Positions 1,848 to 52,740 of a stretch of DNA of 64,000 bases are shown in pieces (within the stretch, counting starts at the first letter, position 1; each line of letters begins with the position of its first letter). The stretch lies in contig NC_065535.1 in the NCBI RefSeq assembly GCF_932294415.1, positions 69,743,362-69,807,361 of the forward strand, given 5' to 3'. Origin of the DNA: Quercus robur (lineage: Eukaryota > Streptophyta > Magnoliopsida > Fagales > Fagaceae). The translations under genes and the position numbers were made by a program. The notes under the pieces were generated by a model. The model had not been told where the DNA came from. It saw nothing but the letters and a program-made list of their open reading frames with translations, and searched no databases.

Positions 1848-2817
1848 GCATCCGCACCTGGCATTGTAAATGCCATATGTAAGAGCATTCATATTCGTGA
1901 ATGCTATTCTATCCTATTTTACCATCCAAAAAGTCACTTTTATCAATTATACAATACTCCCAGCATCCCAACTTTTATTTTCCTATTTTACTAATTAAAA
2001 TAATATTTTTACACAATAAAATAATATATTTCACAATCATCATCATTTACAATACAAAACCACCATCACCACAAGCCCACCATTGAACTACACACACCTG
2101 ACACCACCACCACCATCAGCAACCCATAATCTACCGTCAACACCACCAAAAAAAAAAAAAAAAAAAAAAAACCCAGACCATCAACACTACCCTCTCCGAC
2201 CATCAACACCACAAAAAGAAAAAAAAGAAAAAAAAAAAGCAACCCACGGTCAAACCCATTAAAAAAAAATCACTATCGGAGCTCCGATTCAAACCTTTGT
2301 CAAACCCATCGGAGCCATCACCAGCAAACCCATTAAAAAAAAATGTTTGAACCCAGCAAAACCCATTCATTGGAGCCATCACTAGCAAACCCAGCCCGCC
2401 GATCCATGCCGAACCCAAACCCACAACCACATTGATCCATGTTGCTGCCATCAACCAGAGAGAGAGAACACAAGCCACATCACCGCCGTCAGCCAGGCCG
2501 ATCTGCAATGGGAGTGGTGGCTTGTCGTGGTGTGGCGGCTATGGGTTTGGGTTTGAAAAGAGAAGGAAGAGAGCAGAGCGGCAGAGAAATAACGTGAGAG
2601 AGAGAGAGAGAGAGAGAGAACTAATTCGAAATAGTTTAATAAAAGTTAGAAGAGAGGGGGAATTAAATAATAATATTTATGTTTAGAATTGTGCTGTAGC
2701 ACAGTTCCAAAATTTTTTGTAATACTTGGTATATAGCATTCTGGATGTTGGAGGTTTTTGAGGGAAAAATGCTAAATACCCTCTACATATGGCATTTACA
2801 ATGCCAGGTGTGGATGC
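1848..2817. mobile_element. PIF/Harbinger-like TIR element (non-autonomous)
   Basis: The left end starts GCATCCGCACCTGGC and about 33 bp of it recurs inverted at the right end (CAGGTGTGGATGC). The flanks are TTA on the left and TTT on the right, which fits a 3-bp TTA target duplication with one change. The inside holds a (GA)n run and no transposase. Its right half is the left arm of the larger inverted repeat that continues to 3686. Superfamily is inferred from the TTA target and from similarity of ends and composition to the element at 58065-59502. Confidence 0.55.
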
Positions 2818-2980
2818 TTTAAAGGGTATTTAGCATTTTTCCCTCAAAAACCTTCAACATCTAGAATGCTATATACCAAATATTGCAAATTTTTTTGGAA
2901 TTGTGCTATGTAGAATTGCACTCCAGCACAATTCTAAACATAAATATTATTATTTAATTCCCTCTCTCTCCTACTGAATT

Positions 2981-3016
<36 letters not shown>

Positions 3017-3686
3017 TTCTCTGTAGCTTTGCTTTCTTCCTTTTCTCTTCAGACCCAAAACCTATAGCCACCACAACACGGCAAGCCACCACTTTTGTTG
3101 CAGATTGGCCTGGCTGACGGCGGCAATGTGGCTTGCGTTCTCTCTCTGGTAGACGACGGCAACATGGATCGGTGCGATTATGGGTTTGGGTTTGGCGTGG
3201 ATCAGCAGGCTGGATTTGCTAGTGATGGCTCCGATGAATGGGTTTGTTGGGTTTTGAATGGGTTTTGTTGGGTTTAAACATATTTTTTGAATGTGTTTGC
3301 TGGTGATGGCTCCGATGGGTTTGACAAAGGTTTGAATTAGAGCTCCAATGACTCCAATAGTGATTTTTTTTGAATGGGTTTGACCGTGGGTTGCTGTTTT
3401 TTTTTTTTTTTTTGGGTGTTGACAGTAGATTATGGGTTGCTGGTGGTGGTGGTGTCAGGTGTGTGTAGTGTAGTGGTGGGCTTGTGGTGATGGTGGTTTT
3501 GTATTGTAAATAATGGTGATTGTGGGATATATTATTTTATTGTGTAAAAATATTATTTTAATGAGTAAAATAGGAAAAATAAAAGTTGGGATGCTGGGAG
3601 TATTGTAAAATTGTATTGTATAATTAATAAAGTGACTTTTTGGGATGGTAAAATGGGATAGAGTAGCATTCACGGATGTGAATGCT
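1883..3686. repeat. Large inverted repeat, arms ~0.87 kb, hairpin-forming
   Basis: The sequence from about 1883 to 2780 recurs in reverse complement from about 2821 to 3686. Both outer ends read AGCATTCAT/C..GTGAATGCT. The arms carry matching landmarks: (GA)n at about 2597 against (CT)n at about 2980, and the same CCACCATCACC-rich stretch. The ~40 bp loop is itself the inverse of the 1848-1880 flank. The arms look roughly 85-90% alike by eye. Two head-to-head transposon copies would produce this structure. Confidence 0.75.
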
Positions 3687-3705
3687 ATTGAGAGGGGAAA
3701 AGTGC

Positions 3706-24862: not shown

Positions 24863-25863
24863 TGATAAGGGTAAAATTGTGAATGTGAATATTCATGAAT
24901 ATAGTATCATGAAGCGACATTCAAAATAGACCCGTCGGCCTCATTTGTCATAAATGAAAGTCAAACAACTTTAGGACGTCTACAGCTTTAGGAAGACGGG
25001 GTTAACTTGTCATAAATGGAAAGTTGACACTACTAAGCTGAAGGGAGTAGTGTCAGCTGACGACCCTAACGAGGCTGACGACCCCAACGAGGGAGTAGGC
25101 GAAGCTGACTATCTTAACGAGGCTGACGACCCTGACAAGGGAGTAGGCAAAGCTGACGACCTTAACGAGGGAGACGACCTCGACGAGGGAGTAGGCGAAG
25201 CTGACGACCCCGACGAGGGGGTAGGCGAAGCTGACGACCTTGACGAGGCTGACGACCCTAACAAGGGAGTAGGCGAAGCTGACGACCTTAACGAGGCTGA
25301 CGACCCCGACGAGGGAGTAGGCGAAGCTGACGACCCCGACGAGGGGGTAGGCGAAGCTGACGACCTCGACGAGGGAGTAGGCGAAGCTGACGACCCTAAC
25401 GAGGCTGACGACCCCGATGAGGGAGTAGGCGAAGCTGACGACCCCGACGAGGGGGTAGGCAAAGCTGACGACCCTGACGTGGCCTTGCTTGGTCTCCACG
25501 TTTGCATATATAAAGAAATATCTTGCGCCCCACGCTTGGTATTAAATAAAAAGACTCCTACAAGGAAATGATCTGGCAAAATACGTCTAAAGAGACTCCT
25601 ATAAGGAAAAGACTTCTAATCCAATAAGGAGAGGTCAACCCTCTACCACTATAAAAACCCCAATACCCTCACCAACCAAGGTACGCATAATTTACCCTCT
25701 CTAACACTTTAGAGTTGTGAGAAGTTCTAACTTGACCTTCGGAGGGTATTTGGCCGGCACCACACCGGTGCTCTCTGCGAGGTCTTCTCTTTTTGTGTTG
25801 TGCAGGCGTTGTTTCTAGCACGTGAGTGCCGTGTAGCTCACTGACGATTTTTCGGCATCATCA
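24863..25863 (+). repeat. 5' LTR of the TR-GAG element
   Basis: 1001 bp, TG...CA. U3 holds an array of GCTGACGAC-containing units from about 25050 to 25480. TATATAAA is at 25507-25514 and a second, better-placed TATAAAAA at 25650-25657. Confidence 0.9.
25050..25480. repeat. U3 tandem array of 18- and 30-bp units (5' LTR)
   Basis: Units alternate between about 18 bp (GCTGACGACCCTAACGAG) and about 30 bp (the same plus GGAGTAGGCGAA). Each begins with GCTGACGAC and so carries a TGACG core. Units are multiples of three and stop-free in several frames, which makes acidic open frames on the plus strand and others on the minus strand. Confidence 0.9.
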
Positions 25864-25883
25864 GTTGGCGCCGTCTGTGGGAA
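25864..25883 (+). promoter_or_regulatory. Primer-binding-like site
   Basis: TTGGCGCCGTCTGTGGGAA directly follows the 5' LTR. The TGGCGCC start fits pairing with the CCA end of a tRNA, as in many plant Gypsy elements. The exact tRNA is not settled. Confidence 0.6.
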
Positions 25884-25925
25884 CGAAGCGTACTTTAGCC
25901 TATCGCTTCCCGGACAAAAAGTTGC

Positions 25926-27017
25926 ATGGTACTTACTCACTCGATGACAACTACCAACAACGTTCAGGGAGACGAGCTGCGACCCACTACCCTGGAGAGG
26001 CAGGTCCAAACCCTCATGGAAACAGTGGAACGTCTCACCAAACAGAATCAGGACCTTGAAGAACAGCTACGGCAAAAGAACGCCGCTATGGGTACCCAAG
26101 GGGAAAATCAAGAAGGTACCAGTGCCGAGCGAAGAGACCAAGAAGGGCCGGAAGGTAGTAATGCCCCAAGCAGACCCAAGCGACAAGATATGAGCTGTCC
26201 ATCCGTCACTGATATGGCTCAACCCCACATTGTCGCGGAGATACAGGCGATGAAGGAACAGATGGACATCATGATGAACGCCCTCAAAGGACGGGTGTCC
26301 AGCGACCTTGATGATCTGGTCCACCGAACCGACTCACCGTTCACCGCGTCCGTCAACTCCTTCCCCCTTCCACCAAAGTTCCGTATGCCGCAAGTGGAAA
26401 ACTACGACGGAAACAAAGACCCTCTAGATCATTTGGAGTCCTTCAAGACCCTGATGCACCTTCAGGGGGTACCCGACGAGATCATATGCAGAGCTTTCCC
26501 CACCACGCTGAAGGGTCCTGCAAGGATATGGTTTAGCAGGCTGACGCCTAACTCCATCAGTACTTTCAAGGAGCTAAGCGCCCAGTTTGCTTCGCACTTC
26601 ATCGGAGGACACAGGTATAAGAAGTCTACAGCATGCTTGATAAGCATCAAGCAGCGGGAAGATGAGACGCTAAGGTCTTACATAGCACGCTTTAACAAAG
26701 AGGCGCTTTCAATTGATGAAGCTAACGACAAGATACTTGTAGCCGCTTTCACAAATGGGCTGCGGAAGGGTAAGTTCCTATTTTCACTATATAAGAACGA
26801 CCCGAAGACTATGTCGGACGTGCTTTACAGGGCAACCAAGTATATGAATGCTGAGGATGCGCTTCTGACTCGAGAGAAGAGAGAAAGGCAAGAGGATACG
26901 CGACAGGACAGAGGGCAGAAGATGGCAAGAACTGGAGACGCTGAACGGACAGAAGCTACACCGCCCGTGGAACACCAAGCACCTACGGAAGTACTACCAG
27001 TAAAAAGGATGGCATGA
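25926..27017 (+). CDS. Retrotransposon gag-like protein (Gypsy type)
   Basis: 363 codons from an ATG at 25926. Residues about 22-56 form a likely coiled coil (TLMETVERLTKQNQDLEEQL). Residues about 135-285 are the Retrotrans_gag domain: PPKFRMPQVENYDGNKDPLDH, GPARIWFSRL, LSAQFASHF and ETLRSYIARFNKEAL are typical. The C-terminus is charged and lacks a visible CCHC zinc knuckle. Known role of the family: forming the virus-like particle that packages element RNA. It is the only protein encoded by the element. Confidence 0.9.
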   Translation: MVLTHSMTTTNNVQGDELRPTTLERQVQTLMETVERLTKQNQDLEEQLRQKNAAMGTQGENQEGTSAERRDQEGPEGSNAPSRPKRQDMSCPSVTDMAQPHIVAEIQAMKEQMDIMMNALKGRVSSDLDDLVHRTDSPFTASVNSFPLPPKFRMPQVENYDGNKDPLDHLESFKTLMHLQGVPDEIICRAFPTTLKGPARIWFSRLTPNSISTFKELSAQFASHFIGGHRYKKSTACLISIKQREDETLRSYIARFNKEALSIDEANDKILVAAFTNGLRKGKFLFSLYKNDPKTMSDVLYRATKYMNAEDALLTREKRERQEDTRQDRGQKMARTGDAERTEATPPVEHQAPTEVLPVKRMA

Positions 27018-27185
27018 AGAGCAGCACCCCTTAATTTCTAGTTTACCTTAGTGAATTTTAGCTATACTCCTCAGTTTTTCTATTTACTTTAGTTTTTGCT
27101 ACAATAACTCTTTTAAAGCCCAAAGAGCAGGTCTTCGTTTTCTTTTTAAGGACTACTTTTTCTATGAATGCATGGTTTATTTTAA

Positions 27186-27545
27186 TAAGAGGAGTTTATT
27201 CACGCATGGCCAAAGTCGCCTACGGGTGGACGGTCACTACGCTAAGTTACCTACGGGTAGACGCATGACCAAAGTCGCCTACGGGTGGACGGTCACTACG
27301 CTAAGTTACCTACGGATAGACGCATGGCCAACGCCTACGGGTGGACGGTCACTACGCTAAGTCACCTACGGGTAGACGCATGGCCAAAGTCGCCTACGGG
27401 TGGACGGTCACTACGCTAATTTACCTACGGGTAGACGCATGGCCAAAGTCGCCTACGGGAACGGTCACTATGCTAAGTCACCTACGGGTAGACGCATGGC
27501 CAAAGTCGCCTACGGGTGGACGGTCACTACGCTAAGTCACCGTCA
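27186..27545. repeat. ~58-bp tandem array in the TR-GAG interior
   Basis: About six units of TACGGGTGGACGGTCACTAC ... ACCTACGGGTAGACGCATGG, nearly identical to each other. It starts about 170 bp after gag and encodes nothing recognisable. Near-identity suggests recent expansion. Confidence 0.9.
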
Positions 27546-27559
27546 CCTCAATTAGTCCA

Positions 27560-28110
27560 CGACTCCAAGTGGACAACTCACAAGGTGACGAGGTACCAAC
27601 ACTTAGTCACCTCAACAAGTCCACAAAGTGGAGGAATCCAAGTCTACAAAATAGACGACCCTAATATGCAGTCCATTAAGTGGACAACCTCATCTCGAGA
27701 TGATGAAACGTTATCAAGTCCATAAAATGGACAAGCTTATTAAGTCCACAAGATGGACGATTTCATCCTAGAAGTATGAAAAAATTATTAAGTCCATAAA
27801 ATGGACACAAAGTGGACAACCATGTCTTATTAAGTCCACAAGCTGGACGACCTTATTAAATCCACAAGCTGGACGACCCTACTAAATCCACAAAGCGGAC
27901 GACATTGCTAAGTCCAAAGTGGACGACCCAATCCTAAGAGAATGAAAAATTATTAAGTCCACAAGTGGACGAGTTTATCATTAAGCCTACAGATTGGATG
28001 AGTCACTTAGTAATACCCACGAAATGGATGATTGCGCCAAGTCCCCAAAGCGGACGAGCCCATAAAGTTGACGAGTTCGTCCACTAAAGGATATGACTAA
28101 TATTACAAGA
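27560..28110. repeat. Degenerate short-unit array in the TR-GAG interior
   Basis: Many loose copies of AAGTCCACAAAGTGGACGA, about 20-30 bp each. Each unit contains the small palindrome TCCACNNNNTGGA, so the stretch can fold into a chain of small hairpins. It fills the space where pol would be in an autonomous element. Confidence 0.75.
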
Positions 28111-28229
28111 CGATGGTTTTAACATAAAAGATAACGAGAGGAACAAGTCTACTAAAGAGACGAGTTGGAATTATCCAAATGAAAAGGACTTAAACTCCAT
28201 GAACCTGTCAGTTTAAGCTGACGAGATCA

Positions 28230-28245
28230 TGGAGTGGGGGGCAGC
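28230..28245 (+). promoter_or_regulatory. Polypurine tract
   Basis: GGAGTGGGGGGCAGC directly precedes the TG of the 3' LTR, the expected place for the plus-strand primer. Confidence 0.65.
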
Positions 28246-29420
28246 TGATAAGGGTAAAATTGTGAATGTGAATATTCATGAATATAGTATCATGAAGCGA
28301 CATTCAAAATAGACCCGTCGGCCTCATTTGTCATAAATGAAAGTCAAACAACTTTAGGACGTCTACAGCTTTAGGAAGACGGGGTTAACTTGTCATAAAT
28401 GGAAAGTTGACACTACTAAGCTGAAGGGAGTAGTGTCAGCTGACGACCCTAACGAGGCTGACGACCCCAACGAGGGAGTAGGCGAAGCTGACTATCTTAA
28501 CGAGGCTGACGACCCTGACAAAGGAGTAGGCAAAGCTGACGACCTTAACGAGGGAGACGACCTCGACGAGGGAGTAGGCGAAGCTGACGACCCCGACGAG
28601 GGGGTAGGCGAAGCTGACTACCCTGACGAGGCTGACGACCCTAATAAGGGAGTAGGCGAAGCTGACGACCTTAACGAGGCTGACGACCTCGACGAGGGAG
28701 TAGGCGAAGCTGACGACCCCGACGAGGGGGTAGGCGAAGCTGACGACCTCGACGAGGGAGTAGGCGAAGCTGACGACCCTGACGAGGCTGACGACCCTAA
28801 CAAGGGAGTAGGCGAGGCTGACGACCTCGACGAGGGAGTAGGCGAAGCTGACGACCCCGACGAGGGGGTAGGCGAAGCTGACGACCCTGACGAGGCTGAC
28901 GACCCTAACAAGGGAGTAGGCGAAGCTGACGACCCTGACGAGGCTGACGACCCCGACAAGGGGGTAGGCGAAGCTAACGACCCTGACGAGGCTGACGACC
29001 CTAACAAGGGAGTAGGCGAAGCTGACGACCCTAACGAGGCCTTGCTTGGTCTCCACGTTTGCATATATAAAGAAATATCTTGCGCCCCACGCTTGGTGTT
29101 AAATAAAAAGACTCCTACAAGGAAATGATCTGGCAAAATACGTCTAAAGAGACTCCTATAAGGAAAAGACTTCTAATCCAATAAGGAGAGGTCAACCCTC
29201 TACCACTATAAAAACCCCAATACCCTCACCAACCAAGGTACGCATAATTTACCCTCTCTAACACTTTAGAGTTGTGAGAAGTTCTAACTTGACCTTCGGA
29301 GGGTATTTGGCCGGCACCACACCGGTGCTCTCTGCGAGGTCTTCTCTTTTTGTGTTGTGCAGGCGTTGTTTCGAGCACGTGAGTGCCGTGTAGCTCACTG
29401 ACGATTTTTCGGCATCATCA
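28246..29420 (+). repeat. 3' LTR of the TR-GAG element
   Basis: 1175 bp. It is the same as the 5' LTR apart from a longer unit array (about 28433-29034), which accounts for the 174-bp length difference. Confidence 0.9.
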
Positions 29421-29425
29421 GAGGG

Positions 29426-47998: not shown

Positions 47999-48212
47999 CT
48001 AGGAACATACCCAGCTCCTTAGCATCCAAATCCAAGAATCAGATAATTCTGAAAGTAATGAAGCTCAATTCGTATATTTCCTACCAGTGTGAGATATTTT
48101 CAAGCTAATCTGACAAATAGCCATATATCTGATTATTAACTTAAGTCCTTAAACACTAGATGGATTCAGCTCCCTGAGTAAAATTGAGATGTCATACATT
48201 GATTCATCAACA

Positions 48213-50271
48213 CTATAAATCTTCCTTCATTTCATGTAACAGAAATTCTATAATAGGAACGTAGCCTTCCTCTCTTATTTTCAACTCCAAATTTCTTAGA
48301 AAACCATAAATCTGCTCAGAGGCTGGGTAGAAACTGTCATCAGCTACAAAACTATTGACCTCATTCCTTATCTCAACTACACTGAGCCAAAAGTCTTCTT
48401 CAACCCCTTCTCATTTATTTGAGGCCTAAGTTTAGCCACATTGTCCCATTTCTTCTCCACGGCATAAATATGTGATAGCAGTACATAATACCCCATGTGA
48501 TTGGGATCTAACTGGAAAAAGATTCTTTGCAGCAATCTCTCCCATCTCCATATTATTATGGATTCTACAAGCACCTAGTAGAGCTCCCCAAACAGGGGGC
48601 TCAGCTGGATTTGACATTTGGTTAATAATGTCGATGGCCTAATCAAGCTATCCTGTCCTGCCAAATCCCATAATGTTCCAACTCAGGCCTTGGTATTCAT
48701 GTGACATCATATTAAATATCTTTATCCCTTCTTCAACCAAACCTGCATGGCTACAAGCAGAAAGGATTGAGAGAAATGTTACATTATTTGGTATAACTAT
48801 TGCAATCTTAACCATCTGATCAAATATTTAAAAGAAAAAAAAATTTCCCCTTGCCCATGAATTCCATACCCTGCAATCATTGCACTCCAAATAACATCTT
48901 TGTGTACGATCCCTTCAAATACTTTTGTAGCATTATCTATGCTACAACATTTTGAATACAACTCTATGAGTGGAGCACCAACAAAAATGTTGTTGTTGAA
49001 GCTGCTTATAATTATATATCCATGAAGGCAAACATCTTGTTGAAGAATCCCTGATTCTGAACAAGCTGCAAGAATCTTCACCATAGCAACAGCATCAGGT
49101 TGCATTTCATTTGATAGCATGTTACGAAAGACTTCCATTGACTTATGTGCCATCCCATTTTGTGTATTCCCACGTAACAAAGCAGCCCACGATACGACAT
49201 CTTTCCTGGGCATTCTTTCAAAGAGATCAATTGCTTTGTCAGGCAAGAAGCACTTCATATGCATATCAATTAAAGCAGTGGCAACTGAGACATCTAACTT
49301 GAAACCTTTCCAAACAGCAAATACATGGATCATCTTACACTCTTCTAGACTACAAGCAACTGCACACACTTGTAATGCACTAACCACAGTAACTGAATTT
49401 GGCTCAACTCCCCCATCAATCATCTCATTGAATCGATCTAAGGCCTCAACAGCAGCCTCATTATGAGTATAACAAGCAACCATTGAGCTTCATGATATAA
49501 CATCTTTTTCTGGCATCCTCCTATACAATTTAGCTGCAATTTCAACAGGTCCTGTCTTTGCATATAGATTCAACAATGAGTTCACCAAAGATAAGTCAAT
49601 TAAACCCCCTTCTAATCACAAAACCATGTACACAGCTTCCAAGCTTACAATTAAGCAATTGTGCACAAGCAGAAACAACACCGACAAGCATCACCAGATC
49701 AGGATTAAAGCGCTCCGCCATCTCCAATGGAGAGAAAAATGCAATGGCTTCTTCAGGACAACCATTCTGCTCATGCCCAGCCATTAAAGTCCACATAATG
49801 ACACATCCGGTCCAGAAAATTCCTTAGACACTCTTAAAGCTTCACCCATTTGTCCACACTTCAAATAAAACTCAATCAACACAGAACCCACAAACATGTT
49901 CATTCCAATCCTATGTTAATTCTTCACAAACCCATGAATCACCTTGCCATGCTCTAGCGCCGGCAACCTGGTGCAAGCCTTAAGAGCAATGGGTGTTGTA
50001 GAATGATCAGGTTTGTCCTCAGTGGAAATTCCACAAGATACAATGCGAAAGTCTCTTCCCATTGTTTCTCTTTCAAATAGCTCCCAAGTATAGCGTTCCA
50101 GAGATAAACAGTTCTGTGAGGCGTTTCGTCGAACAGTTGGCGCGCATGCTGAAGAGAAGTATATTTAGCAAAATGAGAGATGAGTTTGGTGGCAAAAAAA
50201 CTGTCGTGTGAAAAAGGCAAAGCTTTGAGGGTCTGAGAGTGCAATTGTGCCACTGAGTTCAGTGTAATCAC
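48213..50271 (-). pseudogene. PPR protein (E-type, At3g01580-like), decayed
   Basis: The minus strand carries a complete PPR gene plan: start MITLNSVAQLHSQTLKALPF, then HARQLFDETPHRTVYLWNAI, HEQNGCPEEAIAFFS, a long run of repeats (VACYTHNEAAVEALDRFNEM; DVVSWAALLRGNTQNGMAHK), then GALLGACRIHNNMEMGEIAA, and an E-domain tail ending near 48213 (VVEIRNEVNSFVADD). The homologous stretch spans about 690 codons, full length for the family. It is broken into at least five frames by small indels, plus an in-frame stop near 48377. PPR proteins of this class act in organelle RNA editing or processing; this copy should make no full product. Confidence 0.85.
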
Positions 50272-50402: not shown

Positions 50403-50426
50403 AGGATTAGCTCCTCTTTTCATTTA

Positions 50427-51513
50427 GGCAAAACTCCAAAACTGTTCCTCTAACTTTCAGCATTTGTCATTTCAGTCCTTTAATTTTCAATTTTTTTATT
50501 TCAGTCCTGTACCAATTTTTGTCAATATAGTACTCTTATTTTATTAGACATCTGTTAATTTATGCCGTTAAGTATTTTTTTTTTCTTTTCTTTTTTTGAT
50601 TTTCGTAATTAACTAAAAGAAAATAAAATCTGTTTTTTTAAATTAAAAAAAAAAAAAAAAACGTTGGAAGGGGAACGAGGAACGTGCGTTCCGGCACTAG
50701 TTTCACTGAAGAAGGTGTTGAAGGCATCGTATCCTCCGCCGACAGTCTTATCACTCGGCATCTGGCCATCAAGTTGAAATAGAAAGAAAAAAAATGCGAA
50801 AATATTCTTGAGCGGGCCTGAAGCTAAATGCGAAAATATCAGGCTAAAGAAGTGTAATACTATGAAAAAGTTGACTAGAAACCATGTAACACAAGCTCCA
50901 ATGTCCATGGGACAAGAAAACCATACCCAGAGACAGATATGACTAAACAATCCAGTTGTCAAACTCATATATAAGAAGTTAAAGGAAAACCCAAGGATAT
51001 AATCAGTAGAGGAAAAGATAGGCGTATTTAGGACTATTTCACCATATAGTCACCTATCTTACCATGGGCGCTAAGCAAATCCACATCAGTAAAGTTCCCA
51101 AGAATTACCTCTACCATGTGGGCAGTGGCTACACGCAACTCAGAACCATCTTTTGAGTTGAGAATCGGCTTGAATGCCATGCTTGAGGCAGTAAAGTTCC
51201 TAGGAATCATTGCCGACCTGAATTCCGGCCTGACCGATGTGGATCGAAACGCACTCTCTCATTTCAGGGAAGGGAGGACGACGTCGTTCCCTTCAATGTT
51301 TTCCCTTCTTATTTTTTTACCAACAGATTTTTATTTTCTTTTAATTATGATTAAAAAATAAAAAAAAGACTTAACGGTACCACTTAGCAGATGTCTAACG
51401 GAATACTATATTGATAAAAATTAAAATTTAGAGGACTGAAATGACAAAACTAAAAGTTAAAGGACTCAAATGACAAAAGCTAAAAGTTACAAGGTCAATT
51501 TTGGATTTTTGCC
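50427..51513. mobile_element. Pack-MULE (Mutator-like element) carrying alpha-tubulin exons
   Basis: It starts GGCAAAACTCCAAAACTG and ends CAATTTTGGATTTTTGCC. Inverted ends extend roughly 170 bp (CATTTCAGTCCTTTAA pairs with TTAAAGGACTCAAATG). A perfect 9-bp target duplication TTTCATTTA lies at 50418-50426 and 51514-51522, diagnostic of Mutator-like elements. There is no transposase. The 1087-bp element holds host gene pieces (next entry). It sits just upstream of the PPR pseudogene start. Confidence 0.88.
50676..51262 (-). pseudogene. TUA: Alpha-tubulin 5' gene fragment captured in the Pack-MULE
   Basis: On the minus strand, 51262 to about 51147 reads MRECVSIHIGQAGIQVGN and then, after an in-frame stop, ELYCLKHGIQAD; this is alpha-tubulin residues 1 to ~33. 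After a gap, 50776 to 50676 reads [20 protein letters not shown] followed by [12 protein letters not shown], the next tubulin residues. The order and spacing match exons 1 and 2 with an intron between. Family sequence is normally GNACWELYCLEHG and [22 protein letters not shown], so several residues have changed. Only the GTP-domain N-terminus is present. Confidence 0.9.
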
Positions 51514-51677
51514 TTTCATTTAACTAGAAAATAATAAGGCCAAAATGCAAAAAGACTTAAAGACCGCATTATATATATATATATATATATATATATAACA
51601 AACAACTTTAAACTTTTTAGTGGACTCATAACATTGTGCCATATCCTTTTTGTATTTTCAATAATTTTTTTTTTTAA

Positions 51678-51814
51678 GGGGTGTTTGGTAGAGTAGTTTG
51701 AGAATTGTTGTTTGGAATTTTTTAAAATACGTGTGAGTGAAAAAGTATGTGAAAATATGTGTAATGTTGTTTAAAATGTGAAAATGTGAGTTTGAACTCA
51801 CTCACCAAACAGGC
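51678..51814. mobile_element. ~137-bp MITE
   Basis: The ends are GGGGTGTTTGGTAGAG and TCACTCACCAAACAGGC. The related unit at about 52617-52745 lacks it between TTTTCAATA and TTTAAATTACTC. Confidence 0.65.
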
Positions 51815-52591: not shown

Positions 52592-52625
<34 letters not shown>

Positions 52626-52740
52626 CGACATTAAACTTTTAAGTGACCTCATAATATTGTGCCATATCCTTTTGATATTTTCAATAAAAAAAATCTAAGG
52701 TTTAAATTACTCTTTCTCAACTATCAGATATTAAAAAAAG

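Follow-up and report, generated by a model that had tools for sequence, protein, structure and literature searches.

The window analysed here is a 64,000-nt stretch of Quercus robur DNA, located at C2:69743362-69807361 of the host genome that was searched (G000; 785.7 Mb, 42 contigs). Positions 50427-51513 hold a 1087-bp element with terminal inverted repeats (TIRs) of ~250 bp and a perfect 9-bp target site duplication (TSD), and two pieces of an alpha-tubulin gene lie inside it. The features of the locus are the following:

50418..50426, no strand: left copy of the TSD, TTTCATTTA
50427..50678, minus: 3' TIR (in tubulin sense), overlapping the end of exon 2 by the 4-nt microhomology TCGT
50675..50773, minus: copy of alpha-tubulin exon 2, codons 32-64 (from phmmer, tblastn and comparison with the parent)
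50774..50845, minus: putative altered 3' end of tubulin intron 1 with a polypyrimidine tract; the acceptor AG reads AA; partly shared with the sibling elements L010 and L011
50846..51086, minus: filler 2, a non-coding piece of a carrier gene at C5:88.51 Mb (L012), 96.1% over 233 nt with 3 gaps
51087..51102, minus: junction patch CTTGGGAACTTTACTG, the last 14 nt of which equal parental tubulin exon 1
51103..51170, minus: filler 1, from C37:67.165 Mb (L029), 94% over 68 nt, shared with L010
51171..51262, minus: copy of alpha-tubulin exon 1, codons 1-31, with the last base missing or changed and W21 replaced by a stop
51262..51513, minus: 5' TIR (in tubulin sense), whose inner edge CCTGAAAT overlaps the ATG by microhomology
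51514..51522, no strand: right copy of the TSD, TTTCATTTA

The element lies ~155 bp upstream of the start (GTG) of the first listed ORF of a pentatricopeptide-repeat gene (48000-50271, minus strand), which is disrupted by a number of frameshifts and stop codons. On the other side, two 96-bp direct repeats (51570-51664 and 52592-52687; 90%) surround a 0.9-kb stretch, and a short stretch between GGTGTTTGGT and CACCAAACAGGC (51680-51814) appeared hAT-type MITE-like by eye. Elsewhere in the window (24863-29421), a gag ORF (Pfam Retrotrans_gag) adjoins tandem repeats encoding GEADDPNE-like units, and two 620-bp blocks of this region are 97% alike.

The element starts with GGCAAAACTCC and ends with its inverted counterpart, with TTTCATTTA flanking both sides. 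An exact 9-mer pair at the same spacing was found at only 3 of 62,891 window positions, the element's own pair included. The alignment of the two TIRs (252/230 nt) comprised 187 identities, 38 substitutions and 32 gap columns (K2P 0.18-0.19), and its score was equalled or beaten in 2 of 1000 random 1087-bp windows, both of which fall within a separate inverted repeat at ~1.9-3.7 kb. Likewise, an ungapped 75-nt end match of at least 61 occurred at 2 of 62,913 positions, namely the element and that same inverted repeat. The 1087-bp element with long inverted ends and a perfect 9-bp TSD, as described in the sequence-only reading, was thus recovered at exactly the same coordinates, and random controls rarely matched it. 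The separate repeat (1881-3689) is large and imperfect, showing 72.6% identity to its own reverse complement over its full length, and a search around its ends gave no TSD of 8-11 bp. The perfect 9-bp TSD is of the size seen in Mutator-like elements (MULEs; 8-11 bp, typically 9), and the ~250-bp TIRs fall within the 100-500 bp given as usual for MULEs in PMC4858842.

At the genome level, the TIR family had at least 123 matches at other sites (40 of 932 candidates scored), as expected for a MULE, and 83 exact TIR starts were counted against none for the reversed pattern. An absence of the TIR pair from related elements, which would have spoken against the initial reading, was not observed, the pair recurring in many elements. 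Of the ~24 paired-TIR places without tubulin that were counted by eye, 18 were fetched, and 14 of these 18 had a perfect TSD of at least 9 bp within 5 nt of the ends (two of the 14 being low-complexity 11-mers), compared to 5 of 2000 in a random control with the same 5-nt slack. A perfect 9-bp TSD was also present in two of the three tubulin-carrying copies described below. Gene capture by Helitron or CACTA elements is accompanied by an absent or 3-bp TSD and by termini of other types; the 9-bp TSD and the long TIRs do not fit such a capture.

No transposase was seen in the six frames of the element inspected by eye, in agreement with a non-autonomous Pack-MULE. Transposase domains had at least 150 matches in the genome (150 of 1249 candidates scored), and the element's TIR was found at none of the 30 transposase loci fetched (~3.3 kb each). 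A 4.8-kb element of the same TIR family (L079, 101-4912) has a perfect 9-bp TSD (TTTTAATTA) and contains other repeats; no transposase was recognised in its ORF list. An autonomous partner with these TIRs was therefore not found among the 30 transposase loci or in the 4.8-kb element.

The two tubulin pieces matched solved alpha-tubulins in phmmer searches (residues 1-36, E = 1.8e-13; residues 30-65, E = 2e-14). A tblastn search of the window with an alpha-tubulin protein gave the same two places (E = 1e-13 and 5.5e-13), and the hits that came next (E = 1.3, 3.9 and 8.9) were not convincing. Among four internal peptides submitted to Pfam, one matched, to Tubulin only: the first piece scored 25.2 bits, below the cut-off of 33, while the second piece had no match. 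The proposed content of the element, alpha-tubulin residues 1 to ~33 followed by the next ~30, is borne out by the phmmer and tblastn matches, with a refinement from comparison with the parent: the coding sense is the minus strand, and the boundary falls after codon 31, leaving codons 32-64 to the second piece. Tubulin homology ended at the TIRs in the tblastn search; its continuation into the flanks, named beforehand as an observation that would count against capture, was not seen. The frame opened by the tubulin ATG meets a stop at codon 21. The tubulin reading frame of the window element is dead, and since it ends after 20 residues, this copy is unlikely to yield a chimeric tubulin peptide.

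The best match of the tubulin pieces in the genome was at C41:2963112-2963516 (13 of 13 candidates scored, second query). The alpha-tubulin gene at this place (C41:2.963 Mb) showed 92.4% identity to the element in exon 1 and 96.9% in exon 2, compared to at most 87.0% and 85.6%, respectively, at the other tubulin loci fetched (C40, C6, C38 and C2:77.7 Mb). By this comparison the C41 gene is the parent, as the best of the tubulin loci found. Its exon 1 encodes M1-Q31 and P32 onward follows after an intron of ~207 bp in phase 0, located exactly after codon 31; the break in the element falls at the identical place. The intron position was read from the genome, as the literature consulted lists the number of exons for each tubulin class without naming the codon. 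A parent with a matching intron had been proposed as support for genomic capture, and the C41 gene answers to that description. Relative to the parent, the element has 8 changed bases out of 93 in exon 1 and 4 out of 99 in exon 2, the codon 21 stop being among these changes. A blastn search of the whole element against the 5-kb parental stretch (L009; E 1e-4) returned the two exon matches only, so that the fragment has a parent elsewhere in the genome without the TIRs, as in Pack-MULEs.

A search for other copies of the element had also been suggested as a check, and two that carry the same tubulin pieces were found in the genome (13 of 13 candidates scored): L010 (C41:19.35 Mb; 1984 bp), with a perfect 9-bp TSD (AAAATATTT), and L011 (C2:58.05 Mb; 2976 bp), for which no clear TSD was found, the best being 8 bp with 1 mismatch and one end shifted by 3 nt. 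L011 possesses true intron 1 sequence directly after exon 1 (137 aligned nt, 92.0%, K2P 0.087); beyond it come, in this order, an insert of 670 bp (TG...CA), the end of the intron and an exon 2 that is shortened. The insert, with ATAAT on both sides, looks like a solo LTR by eye. L010 harbors a nested 992-bp insert (L010 2378-3369) with the ends TAGGAATGGCAACGGGT and TAGGGATGGCAATTTAG and an 8-bp duplication (CCCACGAA) on both sides.

As L011 retains true intron 1 sequence, genomic DNA was captured, and the first capture would most simply have been one contiguous genomic piece. Genomic fragments with introns, as carried by Pack-MULEs, are represented here by intron 1 in L011 and by what reads as an intron tail in the window element and in L010. 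Capture through RNA, in which a processed tubulin transcript would have been reverse transcribed and inserted between the TIRs, could account for exon copies that stand in transcript order and for an exon 1 whose end coincides with the splice site or falls a single base before it; against the true intron 1 of L011 and the acceptor-like TTTTCCAG that precedes exon 2 in L010, it is hardly credible. A processed retrocopy with the introns removed is contradicted by the intron 1 sequence in L011.

The window element and L010 share changes missing from L011, at exon 1 base 59 (codon 20) and at the last base of codon 31, and are for that reason taken as sisters in what follows. One change, at exon 1 base 79, is common to the window element and L011, against this tree; the simplest explanation is that G changed to A more than once.

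The stretch between the exon copies of the window element measures 397 nt compared to ~207 bp for parental intron 1, and the parental intron aligns to it convincingly only near the intron 3' end. A single contiguous capture in which the 397-nt middle is simply the parental intron would fit the exon boundary exactly after codon 31, the polypyrimidine tract before exon 2 and the contiguous capture seen in L011. Given the length difference, the alignment restricted to the 3' end and the matches of two other loci to the middle at 94% and 96%, this reading is very improbable. A remnant of ~70 nt of tubulin intron 1 is possible in the window element from the alignment near exon 2. The initial claim, a non-autonomous MULE with the 5' part of an alpha-tubulin coding region, is upheld in that part by the TIRs, the parent and the siblings, whereas its statement that the window copy holds the first intron region is not: the middle is mostly filler from two loci with a 14-nt tubulin patch, and perhaps ~70 nt of intron.

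Filler 1 derives from a place on C37 where no gene was recognised. L010 has the same exon 1 joint, followed by ~220 bp of the C37 locus, broken by the nested 992-bp insert. As both elements differ from the C37 locus by the same 2-nt deletion and the same C to T change, we read this piece as probably one capture in the ancestor of the window element and L010. The window copy exits the C37 sequence at q411, continues with CTTGGGAACTTTACTG and then enters the piece matching L012. An exact match of 14 nt to exon 1, as in the patch, was reached by none of ~20,000 random window pieces (maximum 9), for a segment that was chosen post hoc.

At the L012 locus, four of the five ORFs scanned matched Mito_carr (Pfam), three of them above the curated cut-off, and the first ORF had no match. 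Because the piece corresponding to filler 2 lies downstream of this unmatched ORF and just upstream of the first Mito_carr ORF, it is probably intron sequence of a mitochondrial-carrier gene. In addition, 62 nt of it matched C35:34.245 Mb at 93.5%.

Two coding explanations of the middle were considered and rejected. A coding 'gene X', based on the open frame 51160-51040 with a GTAAGA donor, had no Pfam match and only weak DARPin matches (best E = 0.046), and the sources are the C37 piece without a recognised gene and a stretch of the carrier gene. The longest open stretch of the middle (273 nt, in a frame other than that of 51160-51040) was reached in 109 of 2000 shuffles, so the openness of the middle says little. 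Concerning a second, degenerate tubulin exon, only the 14-nt patch was exact.

Matches of ~4 nt were common to both sources at three joints (AAAT, TCGT and CTTT). In TIR-only relatives, CCTGAAAT is followed by CAAAACC; among 38 aligned ends, 7 reach this inner edge, with small variations, and diverge after it, the others stopping before it. In the tubulin elements CCTGAAAT is followed by GAGAG, and in the parent GAAAAAT precedes GAGAG, with AAAT common to both. At the exon 2 joint, GTCGTTCCC in the TIR corresponds to CTCGTGCC in the parent (TCGT in common), and at the exit of the carrier piece CTTCTTT stands against CTACTTTAGC in L010 (CTTT in common). No clear microhomology was seen by eye at the joint between exon 1 and the C37 piece.

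Dates are relative and come from comparisons of divergence between parts of the elements. Between the window element and L010, 19 of 192 exon bases and 53 of 467 TIR bases differ (K2P 0.122-0.127 for the TIRs). For the carrier piece, 9 differences from its source were counted over 233 bases; as this is lower than the divergence of the window and L010 exons (Fisher p = 0.017), it suggests that the carrier piece was taken after the two elements split. The C37 piece (51103-51163) is identical between the two at 61 of 61 positions, in elements that differ by ~10% elsewhere (p = 0.009 against the exons; p = 0.002 against the TIRs), which is not well predicted by a single old shared C37 capture. Conversion or exchange between siblings is one possible explanation, and chance is another. 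The same identity would suit a wider alternative, that the fillers came through recombination or conversion among Pack-MULEs and were already inside other elements, for which the large TIR family (932 first-look candidates, 40 scored) would offer partners. Besides L010, however, the pieces were found only at C5, C35 and C37 (13 of 13 candidates scored), and L012, compared by BLAST with the whole element, matched the TIRs in no more than a simple run of 22 nt. This origin of the fillers is considered unlikely, though it deserves weight.

The account that we hold with good confidence, as a whole, is that of a decayed non-autonomous Pack-MULE with a contiguous tubulin capture, transposition and two later fillings. 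An ancestor would have copied contiguous DNA from C41:2.963 Mb, starting near the ATG, running across exon 1 and intron 1 and ending in exon 2 at codon 64, and this piece would have been set between the TIRs with matches of ~4 nt at both joints, where the sequence is observed and the mechanism deduced. The ancestor would then have multiplied by transposition, and in the lineage of the window element and L010 most of the intron would have been replaced by ~220 bp from the unrelated C37 locus. After the split from L010, the window copy would have lost most of the C37 piece and gained ~240 bp of non-coding carrier-gene DNA, with the 14-nt patch of tubulin exon 1 at the joint. From the joints, the likely mechanism would be that breaks or gaps within the element were repaired repeatedly and that the template was switched where short matches allowed it. 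More tentatively, at slightly less than even chances, the three tubulin elements may represent a series of repeated internal repair rounds, each cutting and patching the captured intron. Nearby templates, microhomology and the 14-nt patch, drawn from a tubulin exon of either the element itself or the parent, would belong to this same series, which we hold with the same reserve.

An effect on tubulin at the RNA level, also raised in the sequence-only reading, would be possible through small RNAs, since exact 21-mers are shared with tubulin loci. Between the insert and the 5-kb parental locus, 37 21-mers and 28 24-mers are identical, and 3 identical 21-mers recur at each of two loci belonging to the C6 tubulin gene; Pack-MULE transcripts and small RNAs are reported in rice (PMC4858842, PMC8277862). 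Yet the copy is old, as seen from the K2P of its TIR pair (~0.18-0.19), and its intron acceptor reads AA, so that a functional source of small RNAs regulating alpha-tubulin is improbable.

In its long TIRs, 9-bp TSD, lack of transposase, host gene fragments and length of ~1 kb, the element resembles the Pack-MULEs of rice, tomato and Arabidopsis; those of tomato are described in PMC3310237 as most abundant at 1000-1200 bp. It differs from them in having captured alpha-tubulin, in the later replacement of the intron by pieces of two loci and in siblings that represent intermediate states. Pack-MULEs with one or more parents are already well described (PMC4858842, PMC3310237, PMC8277862). Chimeric Pack-MULEs that combine at least two parental genes are known from rice relatives (~100-300 putative genes, 5-10%; PMC4858842), with which the element has in common several source loci; unlike in these, the siblings reveal in which order the pieces were acquired, and the later pieces sit at the place of the earlier captured intron. 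Animal Pack-TIRs, ascribed to gap filling or FoSTeST, show breakpoint microhomology on at least one side in 67.6% of cases, with a median of 2 bp (PMC8277862). The element shares with them short breakpoint microhomology and filler from elsewhere, and differs in being a plant MULE in which TIRs and TSD indicate true transposition after capture. The acquisition of host DNA by Pack-MULEs is described as not understood in PMC3310237 and called perplexing in PMC8277862. Among titles and the starts of abstracts, no tubulin capture by a Pack-MULE was found, which does not imply that such a case is unpublished.

What merits attention is the history laid down in layers across the three siblings, which is consistent with template switching during successive repairs: in this trio, with one capture and different traceable fillers, the order of events and the sequences of the joints can be read directly. 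It also carries a warning, as the DNA between two exon copies in a Pack-MULE need not be the parental intron. If the repair-series reading is true, Pack-MULEs would gain genes by recurrent gap repair within captured DNA, with introns as a tolerant site.
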